Under the pieces are notes generated by a model. It searched no databases, was not told where the DNA came from, and saw only the letters and a list, made by a program, of their open reading frames with translations. The position numbers and the translations under genes were made by a program. Positions 17,383-46,116 of a stretch of 48,262 bases of DNA are shown here, piece by piece (position 1 is the stretch's first letter; each line of letters begins with the position of its first letter). Source of the DNA: Spirogloea muscicola (Eukaryota > Streptophyta > Zygnematophyceae > Spirogloeales > Spirogloeaceae); contig WELB01000017.1 in NCBI GenBank assembly GCA_009602725.1, forward strand, positions 48,742 to 97,003. Reading direction: 5' to 3'.

Positions 17383-20300
17383 TCACAAGGAGCGCTTGCT
17401 TGGCCGCTTCCGCTGTGCCACCGCCTTTGCACTGCCTCTACACCTCACCTTCGCCTGCGGCTCTGCCGCTTGATACTCCGAGTCTTGGCCGCCTGGTTCG
17501 CTGTCCTCCTCAGGCGAGAGCACGCGCAGGCCTCCTGGCAGAGGCGCGCTCTGCCGGCGATACGATGTTCGTGCGGGCACGGGCTGATGCGGCAGTGGCC
17601 TGATGCCTGTAGCACACTCCTCCATGCCACCACTGGGCTCCTCCTGCGCATGTGCCACCTGCTTAGCCACGGCCTGGCGGCTGCTCCGAGGCCTTTGAGG
17701 TAATCCACCATATGTAAAATCGGCTCCAGAGTCGTCCTCCAGTAGCTTCATGAATACCTTCAGCAGATGGGAGTGCATTCACGAATATCAGAGCCCACAC
17801 AAAATGGAAGATTAAAGAGAAGAAGAGCGCTTGGAGACGCACAAGTACATACACAGAAGCACTCCAAAATACTGCAGCACCTTACCTGACATTGGCGGAC
17901 TGCCTGCCGTACTGTGACGGGCTGCTCCAGCACCGCAGTGATGGTGCTAAATGCTGCAGAGCCCTCCCGGCGAAAGAGCGTCTCTCCTTGCTTAATCTGC
18001 TCTAGCGGCGAGTAGGACTGAGAAGAGTCACACGGTTCAGAGTCAGGTATGATTAAGCGAGCATTGAGAATACCTGCAAGAAGATTGAACAGGAATATTC
18101 TACCATTGTTCACATGCGGGCAAGGAGCATGCCGGCTCAACACCTCTGATGAGCCAATCCGTAATGCACAAACAAAGTGCTTGGATGTTGTCTAATTTCT
18201 CCTTACCTGGCAACGTGCATCAGTCAGGCCATAGGCAAGCTTGATGTGTTGCTTCAGCAGGAGTAGCAAAGAGAGCGCTGCAGAGTATACACAATTTGCC
18301 TGCAGCAGAATCGTATGCTTGACTTTACAAGATGCCTCAAGGCCTGCAGCAGCAACACCACTATATAACTGGAAGACTGAGGCAACTTACACCACCTCAA
18401 GTGCAATGAAGAATTATTTTCATGAGATCATGTGCAGATTTTTGTAGCTCGGTCATACCTTCAACCTGGCTCGGATGCTTTCACCTAGATCCTGAAGCTG
18501 AGGCTCCTCAATCAATGTCAATCTGCTCCCAGATGCCGCTGCACCCTCTTCCTCACTGTGAGCTTCGTTCCTCTCAGCAGCCCTTTCTGGCGTTATCTCA
18601 AATGCAGCACCTGCTGCCTCTTCCAGCGGGCCACCCTTGACAAGCATGTACTTCAGTTCTGCTTGCAGTGGACCACCACGGAGCTGGACGAGACGATTTG
18701 CTGCATGGACTAAGTACAGGGGCTCATCTGGTAGACAAAACGGTAGAGAGGCCAGGACTTTGGAACAATATCTGCAATAAGAATATGTCAGCAGGATAAT
18801 TTAGTAGTGCAGATAAGCACCAAGCTGCTGCAAGCACAGATGGGTTCCTTTGGCACCCCCGGTACACACTGCACACACAGACTGATCTGGTACAGCTCCA
18901 CATGCCTAATGACTTCACAATCCACCTCACAAGTCAGCAATAAAGACACGCTATGATGGAGGACCACTCAACATGCTATACAAGCTAGGCTTAAGTTTGA
19001 CTTGTGACTTGCCACTTACACAATAAAAGAGCTTGTGACTTGCCACTTACACAAGAAAAGAAATGTTGAGAGCTGTTGAGTGGGAGCTCAAGGCTCCTAA
19101 ATCGTATCTGCGGATGACCGAGGACATTAACTTATTTCTTGAAATTCGGGAGCTGCTGATGAGCTTGTATACTCGGGACATGCCCTGCACTGCTTTACTG
19201 AGATGCTGTTCACTCTGCTCATTACTCATATTGTTGCCAGATGATGGGACTCCATGGGACTCCATGGGACTCCATGATGGGCCAGCGCCCTCAAGAAACG
19301 CGAAGGACAGTTGTAAGCCCTCCCCCAGACGGGTCTCAAAGAAGTCAGAATACCTGTACATGTTGCAATCACCTCAGAAATTCTTAACCTATCCACTTGA
19401 ACAGTGACTTGCAAATAGATTGATTCATCCCTCCATCCAAAGTTTTTGTATGCACATGCAACAGGAAAGAAAATCAACTTATCTTGACATTTCCAAGATA
19501 GATATTATTACGACTGAGCACTGTAAGTCAGGTAAAAGAGTGACATACTTGTCATTGATCTGCGAGAGAAGTTGGTGAGCGAGCTTATAGTTTGACTCGA
19601 CAGAATCGACTTCCATAGCAACAAGCGTGGGGATGCTCGACATTGGATGTATCAATCCATGTCGAAGAGCCATCTCCACAACCTGCAAAAATACATGGTC
19701 ACCAGGGCACCAATATAGATGAACTCAGACTCCTAACACACTTGGAAGAGGCAGTGTACAGTCGTCTAACTCGCCTGGTTGACCTGGCCAGGTAGACAGC
19801 AGTTGCCAGGATTTCCAAATTTTCCACCATGACAGCAAATGTGTTACTTACCTTCAATGCTGCTTGTCTGACATCAGCTTTGAGGTCAAGACAGCAACGA
19901 AGGATGCTGTCCCAATGCAGCTGCACGATGCCTCCACAGGCGTTGCTGTCGCCTGCGCCAGCAGCAATGGAAACCGGACCTCTAGAAGCAAAAACGACAT
20001 CATCATCTTCTTTGCCTGGTTCCTCCAAAGCCAGACCCATCTTTTCCTCCCAGTCATGAAGATAGTCGCTGAGAATCTTGAGAGTCTGTATCTGAAAGAA
20101 TGAGTGTGCTACAGAGTGCAATTAGGAGAAACGACAAGCAGCTTCACTTCAAGACTCTCAGTATAAGGCGCTGCATGAGCGCGACAAATGTGCAATTTCT
20201 ATCAAGGTACCTTCATAGTTGCATCAGCACGTTCTGCAAGAGTTGCTCTCATAATAGACATAGATGTCCTCCGCATGAAAATCGCTGGTCTTGCAATGCA

Positions 20301-23300
20301 GAGGGAGCCAAGACCCTGGCAAGATTGTTGATGCATGAGTCAGGTGTCTAGTACGACACATGAAGTGAATACATGTGAACAAGTAGAGGCTGCTGCAGAC
20401 TATGATAAAAGACTGAAAATGGTGCAACCTGGAGAGCTTTGGCTTTGATGTTGAAGTCTTTGTGTTGCAGGTAGAAAGAGAACAGCTTTACAATGCTTTC
20501 CAGCGTGCAATCAGCGACCTTTGTCCTCTCTATTATCTCAGCTCCATATCGGCAGAGTAGCCCAAGTGCAAAGAGACACCTCTGGCAGTTCTGAATACAT
20601 TGTGCAAAGCCGTTGCCTCATTTGTCAGCAAAGCTGTGCACCATCTGTGCAGACGTCAGGTATTGTACAGGTTCGCATAAACCTCACTACCACAGAGCCG
20701 TCGTCAATACCGGTTTCGGATTTAGGGTTTAGGGATTTAGGATTTGTGATTTAGGGTGTTGCAAAGAAAGCCATAAGAGCCGCAAGTATCTAAGCTGGAT
20801 ATTATGACCAGTCAGCTCATTGAGAGCATCAATAAGATGCTAACATGGTATTGGCACAACAGGTGTACACTGTAGGCTTGACATCTACTCTGACATCTAC
20901 TCGCCTGTGATGTCCTCTCATCACCCTCTTGGAGGCTCTCATCACGCTTCATGTCGACCAAAATCTTGAAGAAGCGAGATACCAGAAAGTCAAAGGAGAC
21001 AAGCCCAGTCTGGGCAACACGACAAAGAGAGCACAGGCATCTGCATGCAAAATTTCAAGAGAAGTCAGGTACCTAAACACGGATGATGTTAGAATCCTCA
21101 GCTTACAAATATCCCCAACCTGAGACAAGGGTTGTGCTCCAGTTACTCACTTGATACAGGCATGCACCACAAGCAGATATGGATGCCGGGCAACCAATGA
21201 GCGGAGGTCCTTCTCTAGCTCCTCCACAAAGCTTTGTGGAGGTCGTTGAATCAAGGGCAAGACTTCGTCAATTATGTAGCAGATGCTCTGAAGAAGCTGA
21301 GCTGTGTCCTTTCCACTCTCTTGCATGTTGACTTATCAAGTCACATCACAGAAGCCCGCTGACTATCTCTATATGAAGCTTGAGCACACCCTAAACATTT
21401 AGCTGCCTCTATCTTGTCATTGTTAATGCAACAAGCACACAAGACAGGCCATGCGACCAGAGCTAGCCCTGCAATCCCAAGATTGGTATCAAAGTGTGGA
21501 TCTAATCACAATGACAGTGACATTGATTGTCATTGAGGAAGCACGCAATACCTGAAGCTTCAAGTAAGGCTGAAGAGTAAGAACAAATCGAGCAGGATCA
21601 GAAGAAGGTGAGCATAATGCAGCATCCACTGTGCAGAATGCATGTAAAGCTGATACATAAGGCAAAGCCTGTGTATCAGCCTGTTCGATGGTACTCTCTT
21701 CTGCCTGAGACATGACAATCTCGATGACCAGTGAGAGGGGTCTGGACAAACACGCCACAGTCGCAATGTATGTGTTAATGCATAGAAGGACATGTACATT
21801 TTGGCTGATAAATCTGTCGCAGCACAGGCAGTATCCGCACCTTCAGGATGCTCTCCAACAAAACCTTGCACATTTGCTCACAGCGAAACCGTGTGGGCCC
21901 TGACTCTGTGCTGCAGCCCTTCATCTGATGCGAAGCTTTGTCATGCATCAGGCTCCGCTGAATAATGGTGACAAGGGGCTGATGACTAGATAGTCCTCGC
22001 AGTACTTCAACCATGTGCTGTGTTCTGCTCTCTAGCTCCCCAGCTTCTTGATCAGGGGCACGGACGACTGGCTCTGAGAACCAGAGATCGTAGAATACTT
22101 TCGCAACGAGCTCCTAAAAGAAATTGTTATGTACCACAAAGAGTAGATTAGTATAGCGAACATTTCAGTCACATTCGGAGCATGACATGTCATGCTAAAT
22201 TCTTAGAACATGTAGGGACATGCCGGGGAGTGTTGCTCTTGTACGTTCAGCATTATACACTCTCATGAACAGAGATATCATATAGGGTTGCTCATCACCA
22301 ACAAAATGCTGATGCAATGCTGGATAAGACTGGACATGACTACACGCTCTTGCGCATCACACCTGAATGCTATTCTCCTCATCATTGATCCGCTTGATAA
22401 GTTTCCTGCAAGCCTCAACCTTCCTTGGAAAGTTAGGCTGATGCAGACAAATATCTCGTATGATTTTGATGACTCTTTTTCGTACACTGACGCCAGTGTC
22501 CATGATGCGCTCCACTACGCGGTCAAAGTACTGCAAAGCATCCAGTCAACTAATCAGAACAATTTCATCGTAAAGATGTGTGACTCTTGCTGCATCTTTG
22601 ACAATGCTGAAAATTTCTGGTTGTCAATACCTGGATGGCAAAGGTAGGATATCCTATGATGTGCTTTCCAACAAGGTCCGTGGCTGCCTCTCTAGCAGAT
22701 ATGGCGGAATCCAAGAAGCGTCCTCCCACTGCCCTCTGAACCCTCTCATCACCAAGAACAACAGGATCCACTTCCACGACCGCGCTCACCTGACAGGAAA
22801 AACATTGAACCGTTCAGCTTCTTGACTGACCTTCGAACACACAGATGGCAACCATCAACACCGGTGCATGCATACTGAGTGCTCCTTAACAAGGAGTCAC
22901 TGTGACATTCAAGAGCACTATGGGCAGCGCATGCAGAGAAGGAGCTGTGCTGAAACTGTACCGCTTTCAGAGCCTTTGCTCTTAGTGCAGCAGAATTTTC
23001 CTGGAGCATATTCTGAGCAGCAATGCAGGTTGCGAAACTAGACCAAACATCAAGAAATTCTAGCATCAATAATTTTAGTTGGCTCATAGATGATAGCATG
23101 TGCACGACTTGCAGACCACAACATGCAAGTCTTGCAGAACACATGCGGCCTAGCATACATCGAGCCAGACACATGGATGTCTGATGCCAGGGCTCAAGCA
23201 TCCCACAATCATATCATGAATCACAAAATCACAAGAAGTTGCACCAGGAGGCGCTCCAAGATGCGATCAATCCCTTTCGCTAGAGGGGAGTTCTGATCAA

Positions 23301-26300
23301 GTCCTTGCACGCCTTGACACAAGCTGTCTCGTGAGAATGGCACACTGTTTGCCTTCATGTTCATTGAGTTGCAGTCTTGCTGCAACTTGTGCAGAAGTTG
23401 AGCCACCTCAAAGTTAGACATGGCCTCTTCCTGTTTCCACTGGAGGACGTAAAATCTGCAACATCCAAAACGTCATCATAAGACGGATGGCAGGCACAAG
23501 TTGCAAGGAACCTCTGCATGCAGGGTGGATGACGGTGACAGCTGATATCCATTTACAGGCGTAAGGCCTACCGTTGGGCACTCTTTCTCATGCTGTCTCT
23601 TTGTGAAGCTTCTTGTAAGTGCCTCAACAAGGTGAGCCGCACATTGTAAAACTTGTCCTTGACGGCAAAATGGTCATCTTCCTTGACCTCCGTGTCAGAA
23701 GGTGCACTCTCAGCATTGGCAGCAAGCACATTCAGGTCAGGAAGCGCCTCTCCAGCAGATATGGAGGCCTCCTTGCATACAACCACTGCATCCATTTTCA
23801 AGCGAGCTGCTATTGCTCCAAGGAAATCGACAGCCATGCTGCGAATTGCAATATCCTTGGCTTGCAGGCCCTGCGCTCCAACTAGAAGCATGCAAAGTAC
23901 CTGTGCACAACAATCATGCAGCCTCAGCCAAGCCAGGTAAGATCGGGCAATATGCCTTACAATGGCTGGATTGACTGTGGAATCAAATGTAAGGTGGGGT
24001 TCTGCTCATGCAGCATCACAAGTGCCTGAAGCACTGTGGATGGCTTGCTTGAAGCGGAAGAATGGTTGTTGGTACCTGCAGAAGCAGTCCTGTTCCAGGA
24101 TACTCAGGGACATGAAGTGTCGTGAGCAAGTCCCTCACAAGATTCTCCACAATGGCTTTCGATTCAAATGCTTCTGGAGCTTTGACTTGACCACATCGCT
24201 GTAGAATGGCCTTCCAGAAATATGTTGAGACTTCCAAAGCCGGCTCCAGTAGGTTGTCATCAGGCGATAGGCTGGTGTCACGGCTAGCTACAACATCAAG
24301 GTTGCCGTCACTGGCTGGGTTGCTGCTTGGTGTTCCAACACTGCTGTGAACAAGATGGAGCAGAAGGGCGCTAACCATTTGAATGGACTTGTTGCTCTCA
24401 TCTGGCAGAGGGTAGGTGCGCATGTTGCGCTTTGCAAGTGGCAGCCTCCAGATGAGAGCAACAAGCTCATCAAGCATTGAACTACGATGTTGAGGATAAA
24501 GACCAAAGATCTGCAATGCTCAATGGACCTGCATGAGAGTCACATCTTAGGCCTAGGCCCAGGACCCGCACTTCCTACACAGATATTTCAAAGTTACAAT
24601 AGCCAAGACCCAATCGTCAGTGTCATACGTAGGAGCACAATTGAGGAACCAACATACATCACGCAGCCTTCAAAGTTGCTCACCGAGCAGGTGAGAGCAA
24701 TCACTCGCATCTGCATGACTTGGAAGCCCCCAGCTTGCAGGACAGAGAAAGAAAGCTTCAACAATTGGAGAATGGTGGTGTCCTGGAGTCGGGCAAAATA
24801 TAGTACATCATCCACGCCAGCCACAAGAGAAGCGAGCCGGTTGAATAGATCATTAGTTGTTGCCGATGTCCTGTTGCAACATCAGAAGTTGGACTTAGTC
24901 TTATCAACTTATCAACGCACACATCCATTTGACTCTTTCTCTTGCCTCATACACAATAGAGGTCACTGTGATAAAAAAAGACTTGTGCCTCAGTCGTGCA
25001 TGACAAGTACTGCATTGCCTTGTCACTAATAAGGTGGTGTTGACATTAAGCATGTGCCTTCACTGCATGCCTCCTACCTTACTCTTTTCCGATCATTGCT
25101 TTTCCTGGCTTTCCTCTCATTCAGTTGCCCTTCAGAAGGTTCCACATCTGACCACCCATCCTTTGCTGGGAGAATCAGTTCGAGTTTGTAGATCTTGCAA
25201 GTGCTGCGCTAAGATCTAGCTTCACAAGAGCTTTGTCGGCACATGCAATGAAGCTGCTTGCGATCATACATGAGGTATTTGTCATCTAGCACCATGGTAA
25301 AGTGCGTGAAAAAGTGCAGGACATACCTTCTTCCGCGCCTGCTGCGTTCTTCATTGCTTGTTTCCTGTGTGCATAGTCATGGGGAGTAGATACGCTCTTG
25401 ACTACTTGATGCTTCAGAAGTCCTACGACTTTGTCAAGAATCTGCACACAGGGCATAGATATAGCACCCTGATTGGGAGATCTGACGCAACTGTAGCATG
25501 ATTACTTGCTCCCCACTTCAGTTTATAACGGTCACAATGAAAGGTGAAAGGCATAAGCATATCTCACATCCTGAGAGGCACTTGTTGAGTAGGAAATTTG
25601 ACAATGCAAGGCAGTACCTCTTCATTATATGCTTGCTTGGGCATGTCTGGTGTACTCATTACTGAGGTACACAAGTGAGCAGCTTCAATGGCAGTTGTTG
25701 CCATAAGTAACTGCTTGGAATGAAGCTGCAGTCCGCAAATGGCAAATGGAGCCTTCAGTGCCTTTGCAGCATTCACCTCCTTCAAGCATGAGTGTGGCTG
25801 TCTTGGTGACTGCCACATGGTGGCAATGCTCTTGCCTTGCCATACTTTTACAAGGCAGCAGTACAAATGAAAGATGCGTCATCACCAAGTTTCACTCACA
25901 GTGATATCTGTTATCTCCTGGCTCAGACCTGGCTCGATCAGAGAGCAAAGCCAGCTGGAAAGTTTAGTCAAAGTCTGTGTTGGCACAAGTGCCAAGCATT
26001 CCATCTTCCGCAAGTTCCTTATTTCCATGTGCAGACTTGAAAGCAAAGCCAATGGAGCTGCAGAGCCCTGTTGCCAGTTTACTCTCTTGGTCAGTTCCAT
26101 GGCATCCTCTAACTTCTCTGTGAACCTGGCCACAAGTCCATCTGTGCGACCACAGAGAAAAAGACAGGCCACATGCTGAGGCCAATCTCAGAGGGTGCAC
26201 AAAGAGCTAACAAACTTTCCCTTTCAACTATGTAGTAAAAGTGACAGGGAAAGCATAAGCAGTTGGCATATGCCAAAGTGATAAATCTTCCACCTCGAGG

Positions 26301-28103: not shown

Positions 28104-31100
28104 ATGGAGACCTCTTTTGTCTCGTCGCTCGCCGACGCAGATAGGCCGCTAGGCGTCGTCCGTATCACCGCCTTCCAGCATCAGGCCGCGCTGAAGCACG
28201 CCTTCCGGCAGCAGCTGCGTATCTCCTCCTATACTGCCCCCAGCGAGCGGCTGCAGCCCTTACTCGCCCTGCACACGACTGCCGACTCGGGCCTGTGCTT
28301 CAAGATGACCAGCACGGCCTCCAGGCCTGAGCTGTGGCGAGAACTTAGTCTCGTGCACGGCGTTTGTAAGGCTGAATCAAAGGTACTCAATCTTCCTTAG
28401 CACCAAGTTATGCCAAACTGAATACACGATGGAGGTAACGCCAGGCCAGCGCTCAGACGATGCGCCGCTCGACGAGCAGCGTGGTCAGTCCGAGCGGCCA
28501 TCTTTGCTCGGACAGTAATGAGCGCGCAGCAGGAAGACATGCCAGAGGCCTGCGTACCAGCAGATGCCGTCTGTCTTCTGCTGCCAGTAGAGGTTCTGGC
28601 CAACGTCAACCTGCCGCAGAAAGCGCTTTGCGTGTCCATAAAAGTTGGTGTGAGGTTGTCATGCAACTCTTCTCGTCAAACTTGGTGTTGCTTGCTCCTG
28701 CTCGGCTGGTGGCCAGTTGTTGGCCTGCGAAGCGGCCCTCTGCGGCCCTCTTCATAAAAGATCCTCATCAGGGTAGAGGATCTTCTAGAAGGCTTTGCGC
28801 TGCTTGTTGCTGGCTGTGGCTAAGACTCAGGGCCTGGTTGAGCATTTTGCTTAGTGACACAGCAGCATGAGTCTGCTAGTAAGGACCTACTTAAATGGTC
28901 TAGTAGGTCAATGCCGATCTGCCAAAGAACGCACAATCATGTGCCTAACTTCATATAATGAATGTACCTGATTGCAGACAGCTGTGGCAAGCTTGGACAA
29001 GGAGAGAGAGGTCCATCTTGTGGCTGTGCCACCTAGCAATCCTGACGATCAGCGCCCCCACTTTTGGGGATACATCTTCAAAGTGGGGCTGTATGCGACC
29101 ACTTTGTGGCTTTTCAACACTCGTACTTTAGGCCTGGTACTCGACCTTGACGAGACGCTCCTTGTGGCAAACGCAGCAAAAGGTTTTGATGACAAGATCG
29201 AGAATGTTAAGAGGAAGATTAGGGCTGAGTCTGATCAGGCTAAGCGAGCAGCGCTGGAGGGTGAGTTGCTTCGCCTTCAAGGTGATCGTGCACTCTTGAA
29301 GCAGTACAGTGAGGATGACCAGATTGAAGACAACGGCCACATCATGAAGGCAGACTTGGAGGTCGTTCAGCCTGTGAATGATGGAGCACTACCAATTCTC
29401 AGGCCCATTATTCGGCTGCCTGAGAAGCAGCTGGTGCTCACGCGCATTGATCCTGCTGTAAGCACTCAGCTGGGCCGTTTCCATCGTTCTGCCATGAGGT
29501 CTTTCTCTTCGTTCATTTTGTTTCCCAAGGACTCATTGTAGCTGCACTTCAAATTTCATTCATGCCACAAGTGAGCAACACTTGAGCTTCCAGTACGTAG
29601 TTTTGATCTGTCATGTCTACTTACAGCACCCTTGTGGCACTATTCATGTCCTTCACAGAACCGGGACACCAGTGTCCTGGTCAAACTGCGACCAGCCTGG
29701 GAAGAGCTCAGGAGCTATATACTTCACAAGGATCGCAAACGTTTCGAACCATTTGTGTGCACCATGGCAGAGAGAGAGTATGCACTGGAAATGTGGCGGT
29801 TGCTTGATCCTGATGCCAAGCTCATTCCCCTCAAGGAGCAAAATGATCGTGTAGTGACTGTCAGGGCTGGTAAGGCCATAGCCGCCTCGTCTCAAGAAGT
29901 TGCATCAATGCAATGTGAAGAGGCAAACAGCCATTTGGATGTTGCAATAGGTACATTGCCTGCTTACAGCAAGCAAGGAGTCACAGAAGTGGAGCAGCAT
30001 AATAGTTGCGAAGACATGTAGGCTGACAAGTGCACCCTCTTAGTGAAGGTGCACTCGCAGTTGTTTGCATGCCAGCTGCTGCACGTTGACACCATCTTCC
30101 TTGGATGTCCCTGTGCTCAGGAAAGAAGAAGGCGCTGGAGCACGTCTTTGTAAGAGGGCGATGTTTGCCGAAGCTAGCATTGACGGTTGATGATCGGTTG
30201 GACGTGTGGGAAGAGGCTGATCAAAGCCGAGTGCATGTGTTACCAGCTTTCCTTCCGTACTCGCAGCCACAAAACGAGGTAGAATCTCACACCCAGAGGT
30301 GTTGCAGACATCTGACTTGTTGGAATAAGCATCTGTGCCTGGCTGCCGAAGGAGATGACACTTTGAGCTTTTACCCCTCCTCCTTATTCATCTTCATGCT
30401 TCTCATTTCTGTATGTTGGTTGGTTTCAGACTCATCTGCAGGTCCCAGTTCTTGCTATTGTCAGGAATGTGGCATGCAATGTGAGGGCAAGTTTCTTCAG
30501 GTGAGAGCTATTTTTGTGATTGTGGATCTCATCTCACTGGTGGTTTGCTGCGAAGCATATGAAGTGTGGAAACATCACAAAGAGGTGTTGCAAATTTGCA
30601 GGGAGGTGGACGACACCCTGTCTCCGATGTTCGCAGATGTGACATTTCATACTGATGCAGAGAAGTTGCCGTCAGAAATTGACGTGGGAGCCTGGCTCAA
30701 GTCTGCGAGTGATGTAAGCGCAACATACTCAGAATGTTGACTCACATTTGTCATTCTGCTGCCACTTCTTGTTGCAGCAGATGTCACACAACGTCACAGT
30801 GGCAGGATATTGTTAGTCTGAATGTGTAATTCTTGTTTTGCATCTTGCAGATGCCGTACAATAGCAAAGCAAGTGGACAGGATACTGACGAGGTGAGCTG
30901 ATTGATTATAATCATCATCTAGCATATGATGCTGCAGATTGCACATTTTCCAACTCCTTGCCTTTTATACACTCCTTGGAAATGAGCTGCCTTTAAGGTA
31001 GCAATGCTGACTTGGGGAGGAGGTATGCCTTTAGGTAGCAATGCTGACTTGGGGAGGAGGTATGAGCTCCTCACAGATTTTGTGAATCTTGATGTCCAGT

Positions 31101-34100
31101 TTGCAAAAGCAGCAAGAATTGACCCACGGACAGCAAGGGGGGTAAACAGGGACACAGCAGATGGCATCACGTCCGGACGAGAAAGAGGCATACAGCCATT
31201 GAGTATGATACACTCAAACTCTTACTCACGGGCTCTTTCTCCAGGGGACCGCAGTGTCTTGCCAACACAAGATGCAATTCCTTCGTCAGTCTCGCAACAG
31301 CGCGTGGCTGCGGCAATGTCAAGGGCCTTGGAGTTACTACAGGCCACCAAGGATAGAGGCGATTCTTTGACTTCACACACAGAGGTCGCAGCTGCCTTGG
31401 CTGAGGCTGTTGATGCACTTAGAGCCAATGGGAATCTTGAAGCAGCACAAGCGCTGGAGGTAGGCGTGGCTGAAGGCCTACAGGGATCGCAGGGACAGCT
31501 CCTCAGCTCGGTTGGTCAGGCTGTCACGTCCATGGCTCACAGGCAAGAACAGAATGCTCCTCCAGTTTCTCATATATCAAGGGATGGAGGAATTCCACAT
31601 CAACGTCAAGGTGCTCAGGGAGAGGGAGACACACAAGTCAATGACATCCCTGACACAAGTCTCGGTCAAGATCCCGTGCGTTCGCTTTCGCCAGAGGACT
31701 TAAATCGAAAGAGGCTCTTGATCCTCCAACATGGCTTGTCAGCAGAAGAGCGGGCAAGCGATGCTGCTACCTCCTTTGTAGATGCCCATTTTCATGCTCG
31801 AGAAGTGTCACCAACTGACCTCCAAGCAGGCCAAGCGGCTGCCTCAACACACGGTCTCCTCAAAGTTGGGCGCACGTCGGATACGGCAACAACATTAGTC
31901 CCTCCCAATATCCTCTTTCCTGTGAGGCCAACTCCAGGTCATTGGCAGCGAAGGATTGAAGAGATCCCTTTGCAGCATGCGGCTCCTACACCTCCAGGCA
32001 GCGCATCGCCTCGCAAGGCTTCAGTCGACCTGAACAAAGTACAAGCACTTACTTGCGGCTCTCTGAGTCACCTACTCAAGTTTGGGTACTTGGCAGTGTG
32101 CCGAGATGCAATGCACTGCCTTGCTCTGCACTGGCCTGTTATTGTCAATCACCTTGCCATTGCATGTGACGAGTCAGATATGGTGCATGCTAGTGTCACT
32201 AAAGAAGATGGTGCTTGAGCCCTCTGTGCTTGCAGGAAGAACAGAATACCACAAGGAGGAAAGAGAGAACACTGGAATCAGAAGATTATGCTCTGGCTAC
32301 TGACAGTAAGTCTGTCACTGGAATGACTTTGAGATGCCTTCTTCAGTACTGGAGCATACACTTATAGTAATCAATCATCTGCCTTTAGCTATGGCAATAT
32401 ATCATGCCTTCCATCTGTTATACAAACTGCGCCCAAAGTGGCATATCTATTGCTCTTGCATGCAGCTAAAAGGCTGTGCACTAGGTATGCAAACAATAAG
32501 CACCAAGCATGCCCTGAATTATGCTTACTAGGTGTCCAGTTGATCCATGGTGTTAAAGTGGCACCTGTAAGATTGACCTTGAAAGCGGTAAGATTGACCT
32601 TGAAAGCGCCGGTCGTTATCTGCAAATGCACTGCAACGCGATCTTGCCTGCTCCCAAGCAGGCGCACAGACCATTCTTGAAAAATTGGCGACTGCACTTC
32701 GTGAATTCAAAGCAACCAACAGCAAGGCTGCATCTCAAGGATCCGTCAACCTTCTCAACTCCATCGCCCAGAGAATACAGGCAAAGGTGAGCACATGGAT
32801 ATTCTTGAAGCCTTCCATCCTTGTCTCTCCCTATATTTCGTCACAACTGGTCATTATGGGTCACGTTTGGGCAGCTTCTCTTTTAGCTATCATTTCTGGT
32901 GCTCATAGTGTCCTGAATTTGATATTTAAGCGATAGGAGTGCTGTAAGACACTTGAGAGCATACAGTAAGAGGATTCATGCACATAGGGAAAATCGCAAG
33001 GCAGCTCAGGTGTTGTTCTGATGAAACCGCATGTGGACAAGGTTGCTCTCTTGTGCTAATATTGCTTTGGTTGATGGACAACTCTTCCAATGTTGTGGGC
33101 AGTTGGACTACAGACTGCTTCCAAAGCAACCAGCAAAACCTGGGTTTCGTATGGAGGTAAGAGGCTAGCTACAACATGTTGTGGGCAGTCATATGATAGC
33201 AGAAGAATATGGCAAGGGTCAATGGTATCTGCACATTAAGGAATGCTCCAGCTTTGTCAAACAGAGGTAGTAAGCAGAGCTCTGCGTCAACATGGAGTGA
33301 GAAATCAATACAAAGGATGCACACACCTCCTGGTCTCGGCCTTGCAATCTGCTCGCAGGATGGCAGGCAGGGATTTGTGGTTTTGCACAGAGAGTAGTTG
33401 CATCGGTTGATAAGGGATTTTGTAAATTAGCTCTGAGGTCTATGTCATGGACAAGGGGAAGGGATGTGGAGGTTGGTGGCTCCTTTTTGGAGGTCAATGT
33501 TAAGTTTCCTATCATCATAGGAGACAGTTCGAGCGAGCTGCTCATTGTGGAAAATAATGCCAAGGCTGGCACGCTTTATTTGCAGCTACCAAGTATTGGG
33601 TGAGGTCACAAGGCTGCTCCTTGAGGCCTTCCATTGTGGTCAGGGCGTTGAGTGTTCACATTGCAGTTGCATGTCATTGCAGGTTGATGCGTATGGGCAG
33701 GTGCTTGGAAAGGGGTTTGGCAGGTCCAGGAAGGAAGCCAAGCACCACGCTGCCGAGCAAGTCCTTCAAGCAGTTGCCAGGAGTATAAGTGGGCCCTCTC
33801 AGCCCAAGTTGGAGGCAATGGGGCCTTATGAGTTCTTGCCTACTGGCAGGGCCGCAGAGCCACTCTTAGCAGGTCCCAGCGAGCCAGAGAGTGCCTTCAG
33901 TGCAGGTGCTGTCCCCAGGAGGTTGCAGGAAGGTCATGGTCACCAGAACGGCGCACTCGCATTGGGTGGCATGCGTGAGCTCGACTTAGGGCTGCATCTT
34001 GGAGCAGCGCAGGTCAACAACGGCGAGATTAGGATGAGGCCAGCAGGTTTTATTGGTCAGCCTCCTGCTGAAGGAGCTGCACCCATGCTTAGTCTAGGTC

Positions 34101-35135
34101 TAGGCTTTGGGCCATCTCAAAGGCCACCACTTGGAAGTGCACCACTAATGCATGCCAACGGAGCATCAAGGGTCACTGCTGTTCCCAGACCGCAGACCCA
34201 AGAGAGGCCTCCTGATGGTTTTCCCAGCAATGCTTGGTTGAGACCTCCTTGGCCCATTGGTGAAAATGATCATGGACCTCCTAAGTTTGCTGGGCCAGGG
34301 AAGCAAGCTGTCAGATCTCCTCTAGTTGAGGAGCTTGAGAAACAGGTAAAGTCCCTCCAGTGTTGCATTGTTGTGATGTGCGCTGATTGCTTGAATCGAA
34401 AAGATTGCAAGGTCTTGAGCTGCATGTGAACCCCTTAGCGGTAGCACCTCTTTGACCTCAAATTTATAGTGCTTTGCTGCTTGGAGTTGTTGTACTGTCT
34501 GCACTGTGCAGTGCTCTTTGTATGCATGCTTTTATCTGGTCAATTGCTCACACGCTCAAGTTTTGAGCAGTACGATGATCATCTACCTCAGCACCCTAGT
34601 AATTGTCTAATCTCATGAATGTGCTTGCTTTGTACTTGCAGTTTGCTAGTAAAGGTATCGAGCTGCTCTACAGGGAGATTCCTCCTCCGCCTCACCTCCA
34701 GAACCACATAGTTATCCAGATCGAAGCTGCTGGGACGCCTTTGTCCTTTGGTAGCGGCCCATCTAGAGAAGCCGCCATGCACACGGTAATTGTGATGAAC
34801 AACTCCATGTATTTTGTGTGGAAAGCTCATCGTTTAGTTCCACTGCATGTCCACCGCATGATGAAGCCTGCTACAAAGATTCCAACAGGAATTGCTCTTG
34901 GCTCTTGTTTACCTGCTACCAGGGTGACAAAGGGGCATACTTGCAGCTACGCTAACAGAGCCTGCGTCATGTCTGCGATGCTGAGCACAAGACCACAGCC
35001 TTTGGGACAGTGCGCACTGGTTGCTTAGAGTACTGCCTGAAGCATGTTGCGGCAGGAGCTGGTTACTCTTCAGGAGGTGCAAGCTTTGCGAAGAAGAAGT
35101 TGAGAGAGGTCTTTAGGACTCCACCTCACGATTGA
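28104..35135 (+). CDS. CPL1: RNA polymerase II CTD phosphatase-like protein, CPL1/FIERY2 type
   Basis: Fourteen exons: 28104-28382, 28978-29457, 29659-29869, 30121-30278, 30442-30500, 30602-30713, 30851-30892, 30998-32038, 32236-32305, 32662-32786, 33103-33156, 33683-34345, 34642-34785, 35031-35135, giving 1,180 residues in frame. The start is the first ATG and leads into [18 protein letters not shown], the conserved CPL1 N-terminus. The FCP1-type catalytic motif is [10 protein letters not shown] (DxDxT class). Downstream are [37 protein letters not shown] and [10 protein letters not shown], with the distal acidic pair. [10 protein letters not shown] marks the family linker. Two dsRNA-binding domains follow: LDYRLLP...[20 protein letters not shown], and a second spanning 34642 to the end. 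In plants CPL1 dephosphorylates the Pol II CTD and acts in stress and microRNA pathways. The acceptors at 30998 and 35031 are the least certain; the last dsRBD helix seems short. Confidence 0.92.
28758..28784. repeat. 9-bp hairpin in CPL1 intron 1
   Basis: AAGATCCTC and GAGGATCTT form perfect arms around a 9-nt loop within the first, 595-bp intron. A short inverted repeat of this size can occur by chance. No function is assigned. Confidence 0.5.
30996..31064 (+). repeat. 37-bp tandem duplication across a CPL1 splice acceptor
   Basis: The 32-nt block beginning AGGTAGCAATGCTGACTTGG occurs at 30996-31027 and 31033-31064, offset by 37. The upstream copy supplies an in-phase acceptor (TTTAAG|GTAGC) and the reading frame runs through both copies. 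An acceptor in the downstream copy (TTTAG|GTAGC) would put the exon out of frame. Confidence 0.85.
32567..32608 (+). repeat. Perfect 21-bp tandem duplication in a CPL1 intron
   Basis: GTAAGATTGACCTTGAAAGCG is repeated twice without mismatch, 50-90 bp upstream of the acceptor at 32662. Each copy begins with a donor-like GTAAG. Confidence 0.85.
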
Positions 35136-36172
35136 CGTCTCAACTTCCATTGTGGTTGTGCTATCCAGGCTGCGGAGCATGCATTACGTGCAAAAGCATC
35201 ATTCCTCTTGCCTGGGTGAGGGTGCTTAGCCGGAGCCGTACGTGTACGTGTTTGGTGCAGTGCACTAGGTTGCCTTGTGAATTGAAATCGGCCAAGTGGA
35301 GCAGTTCATGAGGGTCCTCAGGTCGTCAGCTTTTCTCTGAGAAACAAGGATGGCCAACAAACATCTGGCAGAATGCACCAGAGTCACAGAATAATGAGGA
35401 CGAGCAAAGTCTAGATATTTAGAGAAAAGACTATCAGCAGACTCTCACAGCAGTCATTGGTGGGTCCAGATCTCCTGGTCAGCACTCAAACAAGAGATTG
35501 AAGCACCTGGAGCACCTCAGCGCAAAGTGGTGATACACCTGTAAGTAGGACTTGTAGGCAGTCCTATTACCTGTGGCTATGCTGGCAGTTAAGAAGAGAT
35601 GCACGTGCTACAAGTTGTCCCCACAGCTAAATCCTTCGAAGTAGTTGTTATTGATGGACGAAGCAAGTTAAGCTAAGGTGATGTATGCAGGTGTCCGTGG
35701 TGTGCCATCTGTGTGCCATATTGAGCAGACGGCACTGGCCTGCCTTCTAGTCGCGGAGTTGGCTTCTAGTGGACAACATGCACGCCATTACATCTCTTCC
35801 AAGTGGAACCCTTGTCCACTCCAGCTTGGCATTGTCTTCTATGCACATTCTTTTATGAAGAGGCCATCATTGGCAATATTGCCGTCATAATGGCGAGCAT
35901 AGCACTGCAATCACCTCCTAGGGGCTGTCTGGGTCTCAATACGAATGAAAGCGAGTGATTATTGTCAGGTGTTTGCAGTGTGACGCGCGAAGTAATTTCT
36001 GCAAGTTTTTGTGCGTATTTGCACTCAACAGTATTCCATGCAGTATGGCCATCAGTCATGCATCTCAGTAAGTACTTGTTTGTATGTGAGAGTGAGAGTG
36101 TGAGAGTGATTTGGTTCAGATGACATTAAATATAGACTGTTCGGTGGTATGATGGCCCTGTTAGTACAGGGT
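35136..36172. other. Convergent intergenic region CPL1/MPG, no gene seen
   Basis: About 1 kb between stop codons. It should contain the CPL1 3' UTR and the end of the glycosylase transcript. A GAGAGTGAGAGTGTGAGAGTG-like short purine repeat lies at about 36088-36110. No open frame shows conserved protein sequence or splice-bounded exons. Confidence 0.5.
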
Positions 36173-40763: not shown

Positions 40764-40952
40764 AGAAGAAGAAAGTGCTCGCCCATTGAGGATAGGGGCT
40801 GGAAAAGCCAGCCCAAAGAAGAATGAACAGAGTACGAGAAGGGGGCCAGGGGAAGCGCTAAGTAAAACAAGCACACAAAGAAACAAAGCAGCTACGAATC
40901 ACTCAGTAACCCCTGCTAAGCAGCCGCGGATCAGAGATGCTAGGCTCGTGGA
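40764..40952 (-). repeat. 3' tail of the minus-strand non-LTR retroelement
   Basis: Read on the minus strand, this is the 3' untranslated tail that follows the endonuclease remnant. It runs from GAGCCTAGCATCTCTGAT, through GGGGTTACTGAGTGATTCGT, to GGGCTGGCTTTTCCAGCCCC and AATGGGCGAGCACTTTC. The same tail recurs on the plus strand between 43,224 and 43,815, which defines it as a repeat family. The 3' boundary lies near the GAAGAAGAAAG stretch. Confidence 0.75.
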
Positions 40953-40962
40953 AGTGGGTCCC

Positions 40963-43200
40963 CTAGCCAGAGCCAGAGGCAGCAGCGAGGGCTCTGCCAG
41001 CACGAAGGTGCAGCGCGCGGGCCATAGACCTCTGCAGCGAGACGGCCAGCCGCATTCGATACACTTGCGCCAGCGACCCGGCTGCAGGAAAGTCTAACGG
41101 CTCCCCAGGGAAGCGACGGGTGATGGTGTGGCGGGCGAGCTGGGTGAGCAGCTCGAGCCACGGAGCGCCCAGCGCCCCATGGGTGTCAATTGCCAACGGG
41201 AAGAATTCGTCTTCCCGCGGATGGTCGGCGTACTTGAGCTCTTTAGCCCGAGCAGCGCAGACGACCGCATACCCAACCTTGGTGGCACATTGGGCTGGGT
41301 GTGAGCGGTCGTATGCGTCGGTGGTCACCACGTCCAGGAGAAGACGGGGCCCGCCGGCCTGTGGGGTGACCACCAGGTCTAAGCGACGGGCGTGGAAGCC
41401 GTCGGCCCTTTTCATGGAGCGGCATGACACCGGATTGCTCCGCTGCCACCGAGAAGCCAGCCTCTACCAGGATGCCATGCATCACAGCGCGGCGGCGGTC
41501 GTGGGCCGCTGTCCGCTCGCCGCCGTGGCGCAGAACATGAGCGGCCAGCTCCCCGGACTCGGCCCCTTGCTCGCCGCATACACGCTGACGCACGCCCTGG
41601 AGACATGGAGGCGGCAGTCCCAGGAGCCGGTGGACGGCAGTGCGAAGGCAGTGCGAAATACCTCATCGGGAAGAGTGAGGGCTGTCATTGATGGGGAGGG
41701 CCTGAAGCCACGCCGCTGCCCCCCGCGAGGAGGCCGATTGAAGTCTTGCGCGCCTGCGCAAGTCGGTCTCGGGGAGCTGCAGCACGGTGGTGGTGTAGGC
41801 TGCCTTGTCGACTACGGCCGCGAAGCGCGCTTGGACGCGCAGGTCAGCAGTGTGCGCGAGGTGCGCAAAGGAGACCACCTGGCCTGCCAGGTCCGGGTGC
41901 GCCGCGAGCAGCTCCTGGTGGGCGGAGCGAAGCGACACCTGGAACGGCAGCGCGCCTATGTCAACCTCGACCACCGCCTGCTCCAGTGCACGCCGGCCGT
42001 GGACCATGAAGCGCTGGGCCACGGAGGCGGCAGTCTGCGCCCAGCTGCCGAGGTATGCAGCCCTGCAAGAACGGGCGAGCGGGCGCAGGCCGAGACCACC
42101 GTGGCTGAGGGGTATGGCCGCCTGGTGGATAGCGGCTGGCGACTGGAGGAAGCCCTAGTGGCGGACCAGGGCCGCCAAGCTCGCCACCATGCCTGCATCG
42201 AAATCCGCGTACGACGCCAACGCCCCTGGGGATGGCGGAGTGGCCCGCGTCAATTACTGGGGCCGCTGCCCAATGGCCTTGGTCAACGACAGCTGCATAT
42301 CGTCCAGCTCGGGAAGCCGGGCCGCAAGCTGAAGATGCTCCGCAAGGCGGGCTCGCAGCTGCCCCTCCACGAAGGACGGCGCGCCGATGGGGACCCCCAG
42401 CAGGGTGAAGCCATCTGCTGGAGACTGGCAGCCGGTGGGCAGCGTCAGGGTGGGTGGGAGGCCGCAGGGAGACCAAGCCGCGCACTTTCGACGCCCGGCT
42501 GGACAGGCCGAGGGTGGCCAGCTGCAGCTCAAAAGTGACGAAGGCCGCCGCCACGTCTTCCGGAGGGCCGACTATGGTGGTGTCGTTCCGCGAAGGTGGG
42601 GAGTGGGACTCCTGGGTGTGCCGCCGCGGTAGCCTGCAGAGCCCGGTGGTGAGCGAGCGCAAAGTAGAAGCCGGCGAGGGGGTCCCCTTGCCGCGTGCCC
42701 GCTTGGGACTGCAGGACCTCCACTTAATCACCCCCTGTCCGCCAGAGGAGGCCGCTGGGCTGACTGTACCCCAAGCGGAACAAGGGTACCAGGGAGGGGA
42801 AGTGTGCCCGGAGCTCCTCCGCAATACTGGCGCGCTCCACAGTGTTGAAGGCATTCTTCACGTCAACGGCCAGCACAAGCCACCCCGGGTGCTGGTCCAA
42901 GGTCGCACGAACCCCGTGGACGACGGCCTCGCCCCCACTCCGCAGCCCCGCGCCGTACTGGTGTGGCGCCATGTGCACCTGCGCCGGCCCCGCATGCTGC
43001 TGCCAGAGTACGCGGCTCACCAGGCGGTACAGGACCTCCCCAATGGCAATGGGCCTGACTCCCCCGCTCGGCTTGTCGAGGGCGAGCAGCGTGCTGGTGC
43101 ACAGTACGCCGCGGATGCTGGCCGGCACATTGTCTCGGGCCATATGCTGCACATAGAAGAAGGGATTCAATTTTCACATCGGCGGAGCAACAGGCTAGGC
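40963..43200 (-). pseudogene. 5'-truncated, frame-broken non-LTR retrotransposon (RT and REL endonuclease remnants)
   Basis: Minus strand. RT fingers and palm: LDKPSGGVRPIAIGEVLYRL, then motif A AVDVKNAFNTVE (about 42833-42870) and motif B QAGTRQGDPLAGFYFALA (about 42653-42710). An in-frame TAA lies at 42724-42726 between A and B. A frame shift falls at the YxDD site (about 42575-42597), where only RNDTTIVGPPEDVAAAF can be read. Further shifts separate ADGFTLLGVPIGAPSFVEGQ and AAIPLSHGGLGLRPLA. The C-terminus keeps a zinc-knuckle-like region and a PD-(D/E)XK-like segment: LDLVVTPQAGGPRLLLDVVT, then FFPLAIDTHGALGAPWLELL. This order fits REL-endonuclease non-LTR elements (R2/CRE/NeSL/Utopia-like); the clade is not assigned. 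The 5' end is lost at about 43,200. The copy is not functional. Confidence 0.85.
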
Positions 43201-43223: not shown

Positions 43224-43815
43224 CCCCCTTCTCGTACTCTGTTCATTCTTTTTCGGGCTGGTTGTTCCAGCCCCTATTCTCAATGGGCGAGCACTTTCTT
43301 CTTTTCCCAGGAGCCTAGCGTATCTGACCTGAGGCTGCTTAGCAGGGGTTACTGAGTGATCCGTAGCTGCTTTGATTCTGTGTGCTTGTTTTTCTTAGCG
43401 CTTCCCCTGGCCCCCTTCTCGTATTCTGTTCATTCTTTTTTGGGCTGGCTTTTCCCTAGTATGTTGTCGTGATTGGTAGAGTAGAGGAGTCCTTCCTCGG
43501 CTTCTCATTCTTCGGCTTTGGACATTGTCGATTCTTTTTGGGCTGGCTTTGCCAGCCCCTCTTTCTTTATGGGCGACCCACTTCCAGGACCCTAGCCTCT
43601 CTGATTTGCGGCTGCTTAGCAGGGGTTACTGAGTAATTTGTAGCTGCTTTCTTTCTTTGTGTGCTTTGGTTTCTTAGCGCTTCCTCTGGCTTCCTCTGGC
43701 CCCCTTCTCGTTCTTTGTTCATTCTTTTTTGGGCTGGCTTGTCCAGCCCCTATCCTCAATGGGCGAGCCTTCTTTCCAGCCCCTATTCTCAATGGGCGAG
43801 CACTTTCTCTTTTTC
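43224..43815 (+). repeat. Head-to-tail array of plus-strand retroelement 3' tails
   Basis: Partial tail copies at 43224-43306, 43312-43456, 43530-43577, 43591-43769 and 43775-43815, all on the plus strand and opposite to the adjacent RT remnant. Most contain GGGCTGG, a 5-nt loop (TTGTT, CTTTG or CTTGT) and CCAGCCC, followed by a variant of AATGGGCGAGCACTTTC. The copies differ by several substitutions, so they are of different age or source. Confidence 0.75.
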
Positions 43816-43829
43816 CACTCAGCAACTCC

Positions 43830-43860
43830 ACCACACAATGCAATCGTTGCATTGTGTGGT
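43830..43860. repeat. Perfect 14-bp hairpin with 3-nt loop
   Basis: ACCACACAATGCAA and TTGCATTGTGTGGT are perfect arms around TCG. The hairpin lies between the tail array and the tRNA-like segment, at the 3' side of the latter when read on the minus strand. Confidence 0.85.
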
Positions 43861-43895
43861 TGACACCGGCAGCAACAGTGAGCGGTGGCGGTTTT

Positions 43896-44034: not shown

Positions 44035-44120
<86 letters not shown>

Positions 44121-44138
44121 NCTCTCTCTCTCTCTCTC
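44035..44138. repeat. (CT)n microsatellite, about 52 units, with an N
   Basis: An almost pure CT run of about 104 bp with an unresolved base at 44121, ending 150 bp before the DnaJ start codon. The N probably marks an assembly uncertainty, so the true length may differ. Polypyrimidine tracts of this kind are common in promoters and 5' leaders. Confidence 0.95.
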
Positions 44139-44286: not shown

Positions 44287-46116
44287 ATGGCCGCCAGGAG
44301 GGCAGGGCGCAAGAGGGCAGCAGCAGCGGCAGAGCCGGCGGCTGCGGACGAGGAGGAAGGGCCGCAGCGGCGGGAAGAGGGCGAGGAGGACGCCAACGGC
44401 GGCGCCGGCCCTGCGCCTGGCGAAGACAGGGACGGAGGCGCGGCGCCCCACCCGCTTGGCGGCAAGGACCTCTACCAGGCAAGGCTGCAAGGGCGCCCAG
44501 CCTAATTGGCTCTTGACATGGCAGCACTTTCCGCAGCAGAGATTCACAGCCGCAGCGGCGTGCCATGCAGGCGCTGGGCGTGGATCGCGGCGCGACCGCA
44601 GAGCAGATCCGGCGCGCATATCATCGTCTGGCGCTGCGTCTGCACCCCGACAAGAATCCAGGCGACGCCGTGCGCATCCCTCTGGCACCCTCGCAAGGCT
44701 TGCCTGCGCATTCGGTGCCGTGTTATTGCGCCGCAGCATGTTTGCCTATCACCCAGGCGCCCGCCACCACCGCCGCTGCCGCCGCAGGCCGCCAAGGAGA
44801 ACTTCCAGAGCCTGCAGCAGGTCTTTGCCGTGCTGGGCGACGCCGAGCGGCGGCGCGTCTACGACCAGACTGGCAGCCTGGACGACGCAGTGAGCGCCTG
44901 CAGCCAGACAGTGCGCCGCCTCTGCCGACGTCCTCGCAGAAGCCTGAGACCTGTCGTTGCTGTGGGTGACACCCCCGGCGTCATGCAATACGCAGGAGCT
45001 CTCGGGCGCCGCGTTTGACAGCCTGTACGAGTTCTACCGCAACGTCTTCAAGAAGGTGCGGCACACGCCCCCAACAATGCAAGAATTTGTGGTGCATCAC
45101 CTCTCTCCAACTAGTGGACTGACGTGGGGAAATGGGCCCCTGCAACGGGCAGGTTTCGGCTGATGACATAGTGGCCTTTGAGGCCGACTACCGTGGCTCG
45201 GCTGAGGAGACGGCCGATCTCAAGCAGCTGTATCGGCGCTTCAAAGGCAACATGACCATGTGAGGCATCTCATGCAGCATCCTGCCGCTGAACGTCGAGC
45301 GGGCTTGTTGGACCTGCGAGTGGACGGCCTAAGGCGGCTACTCTGACCAGCACATGGCAAAGCTTCGCCAGCGAAGTAATGGTGGCCTGCTGCACGCTGA
45401 TGGCCTTAGGGTGATGGCGTGGATGTTGTGCTCTTCTGACGCCGACTGCCACCGCTTCATGACCATCCTAGACGACGCTGTGGCTGAAGGCGAGCTTTAC
45501 TGACACCACCGTTCATGCAAGGCTTTGCACTGCTTCTCAGTGCCTCAAGGCTGTGGGGCTGGTTTCAAGGTCCTGACATGCCAGCCTTGTTTCACGCTGG
45601 TGTCACTTGCATAAGCAGGCGAGCTTCCGGAGCGCAAAGCGTACCGCCGATGGGCTCAGCGGGTTGCCAAAAGAGGGCCTCCTCCAGAGTCTCCACTGAA
45701 GCCGGCTGCCAGAAGGTCAGGCGACGAGATAGACGTCTCACACTTTCAAGCTCGGCTCCTATTTTGCTGGTCTGACAGATGATGTTTGTTGTAATGGTAA
45801 GGTCAAGTCACACATGCAGCGACTCACTGTATTATTGCTGAGATTGTACTTGGAACTGCCGCATAGGGACGGCAATGGCGGCTCCCAGGGAGACCTCGCG
45901 GCACTCATTCGCAGCCGGCAGGGGCAGCGTGGTGAGGAGCTCGTGGCAGTGCTCGCTGCTAAGTATGGCAAGCCCGAAGGCAATCGGGTGGGCAAGCGGC
46001 GGGGCGGCGCAGAGGTAGCCGGCGGCGCTGCTGCGCACGAGCCTTCTGAAGAGGATTTTGCAATTGCACACAAGCTAGTGATGGCCCGCCGCGGCGTCGC
46101 AAAGCCAAAGAAGTAG
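44287..46116 (+). CDS. DNAJC9: J-domain co-chaperone, DNAJC9 / plant DnaJ6 type
   Basis: Eight exons: 44287-44478, 44571-44669, 44788-44889, 44996-45055, 45153-45259, 45410-45489, 45619-45715, 45867-46116, giving 328 residues with consistent phases. An Ala/Glu-rich N-terminus leads to the J domain: DLYQALGVDRGATAEQIRRAY, the HPD tripeptide in LRLHPDKNPGDA, then FQSLQQVFAVLGDAERRRVYD. Downstream blocks match DNAJC9/DnaJ6: YEFYRNVFKKV, DIVAFEADYRGS, DLKQLYRRFKGNM, CHRFMTILDDAVAEGEL and KAYRRWAQRV, then a basic C-terminus ending AKPKK. DNAJC9 is known as an HSP70 co-chaperone and histone H3-H4 chaperone. Two introns need GC-AG splicing (44479-44570 and 45490-45618). The gene is intact although retroelement debris surrounds it. 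Confidence 0.9.
45490..45618 (+). mobile_element. Introner-like intron in the DnaJ gene
   Basis: This 129-bp intron starts GC and ends AG. The 10-bp sequence AGGCGAGCTT lies at both junctions (45488-45497 and 45617-45626) and survives once in the spliced mRNA, as expected of a target-site duplication. Inside, TGACACCACCGTTCATGCAA (from 45501) and the complement of GCCTTGTTTCACGCTGGTGT (from 45584) form imperfect inverted repeats sharing TGACACCA, CGT and CAAGGC. The first donor GC comes from the duplicated target itself. Removing the insert restores GAA-GGC-GAG-CTT in the conserved AEGEL motif. Confidence 0.6.

Follow-up and report, generated by a model that had tools for sequence, protein, structure and literature searches.

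A predicted GC-AG intron with an exact 10-bp junction repeat and a hairpin in a DNAJC9-type gene of Spirogloea muscicola: a candidate introner-like insertion

Introduction

An intron whose two ends lie in copies of the same short sequence raises the question of how it was born, namely whether it was inserted into an exon with duplication of the target or whether it is an ordinary intron whose repeats are due to chance. The question is posed here by a short predicted intron in a co-chaperone gene of the zygnematophycean alga Spirogloea muscicola. The stretch of DNA that was analysed, hereafter the window, comprises 48,262 nucleotides (contig WELB01000017.1, positions 48,742 to 97,003, assembly GCA_009602725.1), and all coordinates are given relative to its first letter.

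Introners have been found in lineages such as green algae, and the survey of their families reports target-site duplication in 49 of 130 and terminal inverted repeats in 72 of 177, neither feature being obligatory (PMC9860276). According to the same source, GC 5' splice sites make up 0-50% within these families, in some families both splice sites are supplied by the site of insertion, and the duplications of previously characterised introners measure 3-9 bp. The introner elements of Amoebophrya are described with inverted repeats of 8-20 nt able to fold the intron and with direct repeats overlapping its borders (PMC7789003). In Daphnia, significant internal repeats were reported in 55 of 90 neointrons versus 100 of 617 established introns (PMC4202315). 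Direct repeats were also reported near the borders of 213 of 213 introns examined, belonging to several classes (Rogers and Bendich 2025, PMC11782384), a reminder that border direct repeats alone would prove little.

Materials and Methods

The exon chain of the DNAJC9-type gene was picked by eye from the three-frame translation. A comparison set was assembled from nine kinesin, nine Sas10 and seven DNAJC9 introns, to which RPS12 was added. The kinesin and Sas10 introns are ab initio predictions chosen by coordinates around Pfam hits, neighbours beyond those limits being dropped. One predicted Sas10 intron (16448-16904) holds a piece of the Pfam Sas10 domain and was replaced by two introns (16448-16675 and 16745-16904), giving a set of 27; a recount with this corrected set left the conclusions and the odds unaltered. 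The ab initio run yielded 113 predicted introns, of which 80 passed the flank filter, and its output is still noisy, so these totals were not used. The RPS12 gene is encoded by the minus strand (about 10.4-10.9 kb). The best four of its 52 PDB matches reach 198.6-201.4 bits, the remainder at most 172.5, and we take these four, from their entry codes, to be plant ribosomes, in keeping with a host of the green lineage.

Possible introns were counted as AG|GY donors paired with AG| acceptors at a spacing of 60-300 nt, and the same counts were made in 60 Markov-simulated windows (512567 pairs). A looser scan accepted direct repeats of at least 8 bp together with a 10-nt inverted repeat holding at most one mismatch, at a spacing of 50-600. 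The probabilities attached to the various origins are our own judgement.

Results and Discussion

Table 1. Features of the DNAJC9-type gene and of its GC-AG intron
Feature	Position	Strand	Basis
DNAJC9-type co-chaperone gene (8 exons, 7 introns, 328 aa)	44287..46116	+	stop-free translation, Pfam domains
Predicted phase-1 GC-AG intron of 129 nt with donor AAG|GCGAGC and acceptor CATAAGCAG|GC	45490..45618	+	predicted from frame and protein domain
Left copy of 10-bp direct repeat AGGCGAGCTT; contains exon-end AG and GC donor	45488..45497	+	exact match
Right copy of 10-bp direct repeat AGGCGAGCTT; first two bases are the AG acceptor, remainder exon	45617..45626	+	exact match
Left inverted-repeat arm (imperfect), TGACACCACCGTTCATGCAAGGCT, lying 3 bp inward of the direct repeat	45501..45524	+	alignment
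Right inverted-repeat arm (imperfect; reverse complement TGACACCAGCGTGAAACAAGGCT), lying 11 bp inward of the direct repeat	45583..45605	-	alignment
In-frame TGA met upon intron retention	45501..45503	+	translation
CTGAC, candidate branch-point site about 40 nt upstream of the acceptor	45573..45577	+	read from sequence

The product predicted from the gene (Table 1) carries a Pfam DnaJ domain at residues 61-123 and, given the 129-nt excision, a Pfam HTH_DNAJC9 domain at residues 164-231 that spans profile positions 1-68 of 69 (E 6.9e-21). Removal of the intron thus keeps the frame and restores this domain on paper, the predicted protein reading AVAEGELPERKAY across the junction. A total of 37 stop-free in-frame GT/GC-AG pairings can be formed with donors at 45440-45559 and acceptors up to 45715, and a single one, that of Table 1, leaves the AEGEL motif intact; the exact restoration of this motif, claimed in the preliminary description, is thereby borne out at the level of prediction. 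The nearest alternative pairing (126 nt) leads to AEAGEL. GT-donor splicing at this site was rejected, as the five pairings that allow it all start from donor 45480 and all lose conserved residues. The junction repeat lets the splice position slide by ten bases with the mRNA unaltered, and the register was set as GC-AG because this fits known splice sites.

The GC-AG subclass of U2 introns is characterised by an AG|GC donor with A at +4 and G at +5, and by an AG acceptor. All these elements are present in the predicted intron along with a conserved protein product; its long junction repeat and its hairpin are foreign to the class. The CTGAC of Table 1 presumably fits the branch-point consensus and is kept as a candidate. 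A known structured RNA inside the intron was rejected: at the gathering threshold Rfam matched nothing in the window, and in 45440-45680 there was no match even up to an E value of 1.

Upstream of the gene, a CT dinucleotide array of 51.5 copies (44036-44138) stops some 150 bp short of the start codon. Further upstream, a near-perfect 17-nt palindrome with a 3-nt loop, TCCACCACACAATGCAA/TTGCATTGTGTGGTTGA, occupies 43827-43863.

It had been noted that one sequence flanks the intron on both sides, is retained once in the mRNA and includes the GC donor. These observations hold: the two 10-bp copies of AGGCGAGCTT are identical, their start-to-start distance is 129, a single one is kept in the predicted mRNA, and both splice dinucleotides fall in the duplicated AG|GC. 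Across the 27 introns of the four genes, which are mostly predictions from sequence and some of which lack domain-matched flanking exons, the junction repeat measures 10 bp at this intron and 0-6 bp at the other 26. It is therefore an outlier and has, as in introners, the form of an exact target-site duplication at the junctions; it also lies within the 4-12 bp of the direct repeats that link an exon end to the opposite intron end in break-repair neointrons. None of the 702 cross-pairings between donors and acceptors of these introns reaches 10 bp, the longest being 9 bp, and six reach at least 7 bp.

Junction repeats of 3-5 bp are nevertheless frequent (13 of 27). Together with the repeats of up to 9 bp between unrelated donors and acceptors, they favor the view of an ordinary old GC-donor intron, in which the 10-bp repeat would be AG|GC plus the exon-start consensus extended by chance and in which the hairpin would be a chance structure, picked as the most striking one. 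In the plus-strand pairs, direct repeats of at least 8 bp number 21 versus 19.7 per simulated window (1181 in 60), so that on their own they show no excess over simulation. Those of at least 10 bp occur in 6 of 9767 pairs, this intron included, versus 2.2 per simulated window (129 in 60). This fraction can be read in both directions for an old intron: repeats of such length do arise in the window, and yet the event is unlikely for any given pair.

The inverted repeats are real, since their alignment (24 nt, 18 matches) is equalled by only 6 of 2000 dinucleotide shuffles and its score of 21 is the highest among the 27 introns, the next being 14. Contrary to what had been stated, they are subterminal, the arms being displaced inwards by 3 and 11 bp. 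In an intact transposon, the inverted repeats abut the target duplication directly. No direct repeat of 3-12 bp flush with the inverted repeats was found here, the flanks differing at two or more positions every time, and the anatomy of an intact transposon was rejected for this intron. The preliminary wording 'built like a DNA transposon' accordingly goes too far: the arms do not abut the duplication, the window holds no second copy, and a staggered break leaves a like direct repeat, of 4-12 bp in Daphnia (PMC4202315). Relative to the two ends of the intron, the arms have nearly equal offsets (11 and 13), which places the centre of the hairpin at that of the intron and not at that of the supposed insert. 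Such arms would fit a decayed element, filler captured at a staggered break, or a structure merely serving splicing.

At the RNA level, the intron is predicted to fold into one long hairpin (-53.6 kcal/mol, z -3.5, none of 200 shuffles as low), and further estimates with 100 shuffles each gave z values of -3.1 and -4.2. The DNA fold of the stretch that includes both direct repeats reaches a z of -1.9 only, 7 of 200 shuffles being as good. The sole other notable folder among the compared introns is a predicted Sas10 intron of 497 nt (13502-13998), with z values of -3.8 (30 shuffles) and -2.7 (100 shuffles) and without inverted repeats at its ends.

The two kinds of repeat were then considered jointly. 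A direct repeat of at least 8 bp combined with an inverted-repeat score as high as here is found in 1 of 9767 plus-strand pairs, which is the intron itself, in none of 8628 minus-strand pairs, and once in the 60 simulated windows; these figures overstate the case, as the features were selected after the preliminary description had noticed them and because it had picked the most striking among many introns. That the joint feature falls on an intron with protein-domain support makes it rarer still than one per 60 windows. With the looser scan, four instances were obtained in the window, as compared with 2.55 on average in 20 simulated windows, and BLAST gave no convincing match, so that no sibling elements were recognized in the window.

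The search for related sequences proposed in the preliminary description was run with blastn on the 48-kb window alone. No related sequence was found there, the best match outside the intron being 17 nt long (E 0.056), and the window likewise holds no source for the intron as filler. This absence of a second copy is uninformative for a low-copy family. In viral contigs, the window-repeat pattern, a 19-base intron pattern and a gapped inverted-repeat pattern gave no match, and an 81-aa piece of the DNAJC9 product gave 10 pattern-matching stretches with no confirmed relative. In prokaryotic genome contigs, the search for DNAJC9 relatives gave 341 matching stretches, none confirmed, and the gapped inverted-repeat pattern matched a Myxococcales MAG (L001) and a Pantoea plasmid (L002). 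These two were dismissed as relatives and taken as chance, with BLAST pieces of 10-18 nt, the best being a 15-nt exact match in the plasmid (E 0.006); neither the viral nor the prokaryotic collection could be expected to contain copies of an algal intron.

From the repeats, the frame, the homology and the predicted fold, we infer that the intron is spliced and that it most likely derives from a foldback MITE-like, introner-like insertion with a 10-bp target duplication (probability about 0.42). A foldback segment of about 119 bp would have entered the exon and duplicated the target AGGCGAGCTT, whose AG|GC would have been located in the codons for Glu-Gly-Glu-Leu. The left copy would provide the end of the exon and the GC donor, followed by GAGC, and the right copy the AG acceptor and the exon start. 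As the target contained AG|GC, the new segment would begin with GC and end with AG, and since both splice dinucleotides would be target-derived, excision would restore the original codons exactly. The insert would contribute the interior, with a possible branch site and a hairpin drawing the ends together, and little else would be needed. The GC donor would then be a relic of the target with no special property.

This MITE-like origin is supported by the outlying direct repeat, the inverted-repeat score, the RNA fold, the joint rarity and the domain-supported intron. The non-terminal arms (3 and 11 bp), the modest DNA fold and the lack of relatives in the window speak against it, as does a duplication longer than the 3-9 bp cited for characterised introners (PMC9860276). 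With the introners of that survey, the intron shares its short length, its location in a coding exon, the junction direct repeat, the inner inverted repeats, the predicted exact restoration of the frame and splice sites that are partly or wholly target-derived; it differs in being known from one copy, in the distance of its arms from the repeat and in the length of this repeat. The foldable inverted repeats and the direct repeats across the exon/intron borders also recall Amoebophrya, where direct repeats of 3-5 nt and non-canonical introns are described (PMC7789003); the present intron, in a gene of the green lineage, has a repeat of 10 nt and GC-AG ends. A single copy raises a good suspicion, short of proof. 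The preliminary description had proposed a recently gained introner; the repeats and the frame are indeed best explained by an insertion duplicating its target, but the qualifier 'recent' is weak because only about six positions of the intronic copy (GAGCTT) lie free of the core splice dinucleotides.

The chief competing explanation is an old intron whose repeats are due to chance, a serious, if somewhat doubtful, possibility. Besides the frequent short junction repeats, it can invoke the presence of two more GC-AG introns in the compared set and the border direct repeats reported for every one of 213 introns (Rogers and Bendich 2025, PMC11782384). It requires, however, that a direct repeat and an inverted repeat, each unlikely and jointly met once per 60 simulated windows, fall together on an intron that has protein-domain support.

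Repair of a staggered double-strand break, in which a 10-nt overhang would be filled in and a filler with a chance foldback captured without transposase, is considered unlikely. Of the 90 Daphnia neointrons studied, 33 are such cases, marked by direct repeats of 4-12 bp (PMC4202315) with the same placement as here between an exon end and the opposite intron end; gain was observed there through populations, whereas here it is proposed from one sequence. Terminal inverted repeats are unneeded in such a repair, so the offsets of the arms pose no difficulty, and the intron contains an internal near-repeat, CAAGGCTTTG/CAAGGCTGTG, a type of feature in which Daphnia neointrons are richer (PMC4202315). 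The inverted repeat itself is not predicted by break repair and no filler source was found in the window; the hairpin also falls outside the description of Daphnia neointrons, since the word 'inverted' is absent from the main text of PMC4202315. Insertion with target duplication, be it transposon-like or by break repair, is on balance the probable origin. An origin in which a piece of exon containing AGGC was duplicated in tandem, so that both splice sites were created together, agrees with AG|GC on either side of the intron. It is hardly credible, as the intron shows no resemblance to its gene apart from the 10 bp (the closest match being 22 nt, 82%, E 0.34).

GC donors are not exceptional in this window: they are found in 3 of the 27 predicted introns, a rough share because the splice priors of the gene finder were typed in from general knowledge with 12% GC donors. 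The two others are DNAJC9 intron 1 (44479-44570) and a kinesin intron (3493-3731), both predicted, which have AGGC on either side and junction repeats CAGGC and AGGCA. Exons starting with GC follow all three GC-AG introns versus 5 of 24 GT introns (Fisher p 0.019), a lead that comes from a tiny sample of predicted introns. It is imaginable, though rather improbable, that the present intron is a copy of an undescribed green-alga introner family that inserts at AGGY, duplicates its target and draws both splice dinucleotides from it, the GC-AG introns of the genome being fossils of AGGC insertions.

Contrary to the earlier remark that GC-donor introners are little described, the GC share of up to 50% in surveyed families (PMC9860276) places them in the existing literature. 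A narrow literature search returned no paper specifically on green-algal introners with GC donors, and the supplement of PMC9860276 may list such families. The intron is thus a candidate addition to the introners already described. If a family exists, it would offer a green alga with introns whose birth is legible base by base, a simple cause for some GC-starting introns, namely AGGC in the duplicated target, and a direct way to ask if GC donors become GT by subsequent repair. As a lone case, it would be one more candidate for phenomena already in print.

With regard to mobile elements in the window, no transposase was found by Pfam (E up to 0.001) on the plus strand at 1-45999 or on the minus strand at 8000-43999, and a reverse transcriptase is present. 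Its domain (about 42619-43077, minus strand) lies between repeats 40766-40963 and 43224-43816, which form one family of GGGCTGGCTTTGCCAGCCC-like units in opposite orientation, 77-95% alike. The G+C content per 2-kb bin is 0.465-0.501 in 18001-26000 and 30001-36000 and 0.528-0.653 in the other bins. Degenerate repeats at 20712-20757, GGTTTGGGATTTAG and GGATTTAGGATTTAG, are telomere-like, and we take them to resemble plant telomere repeats.
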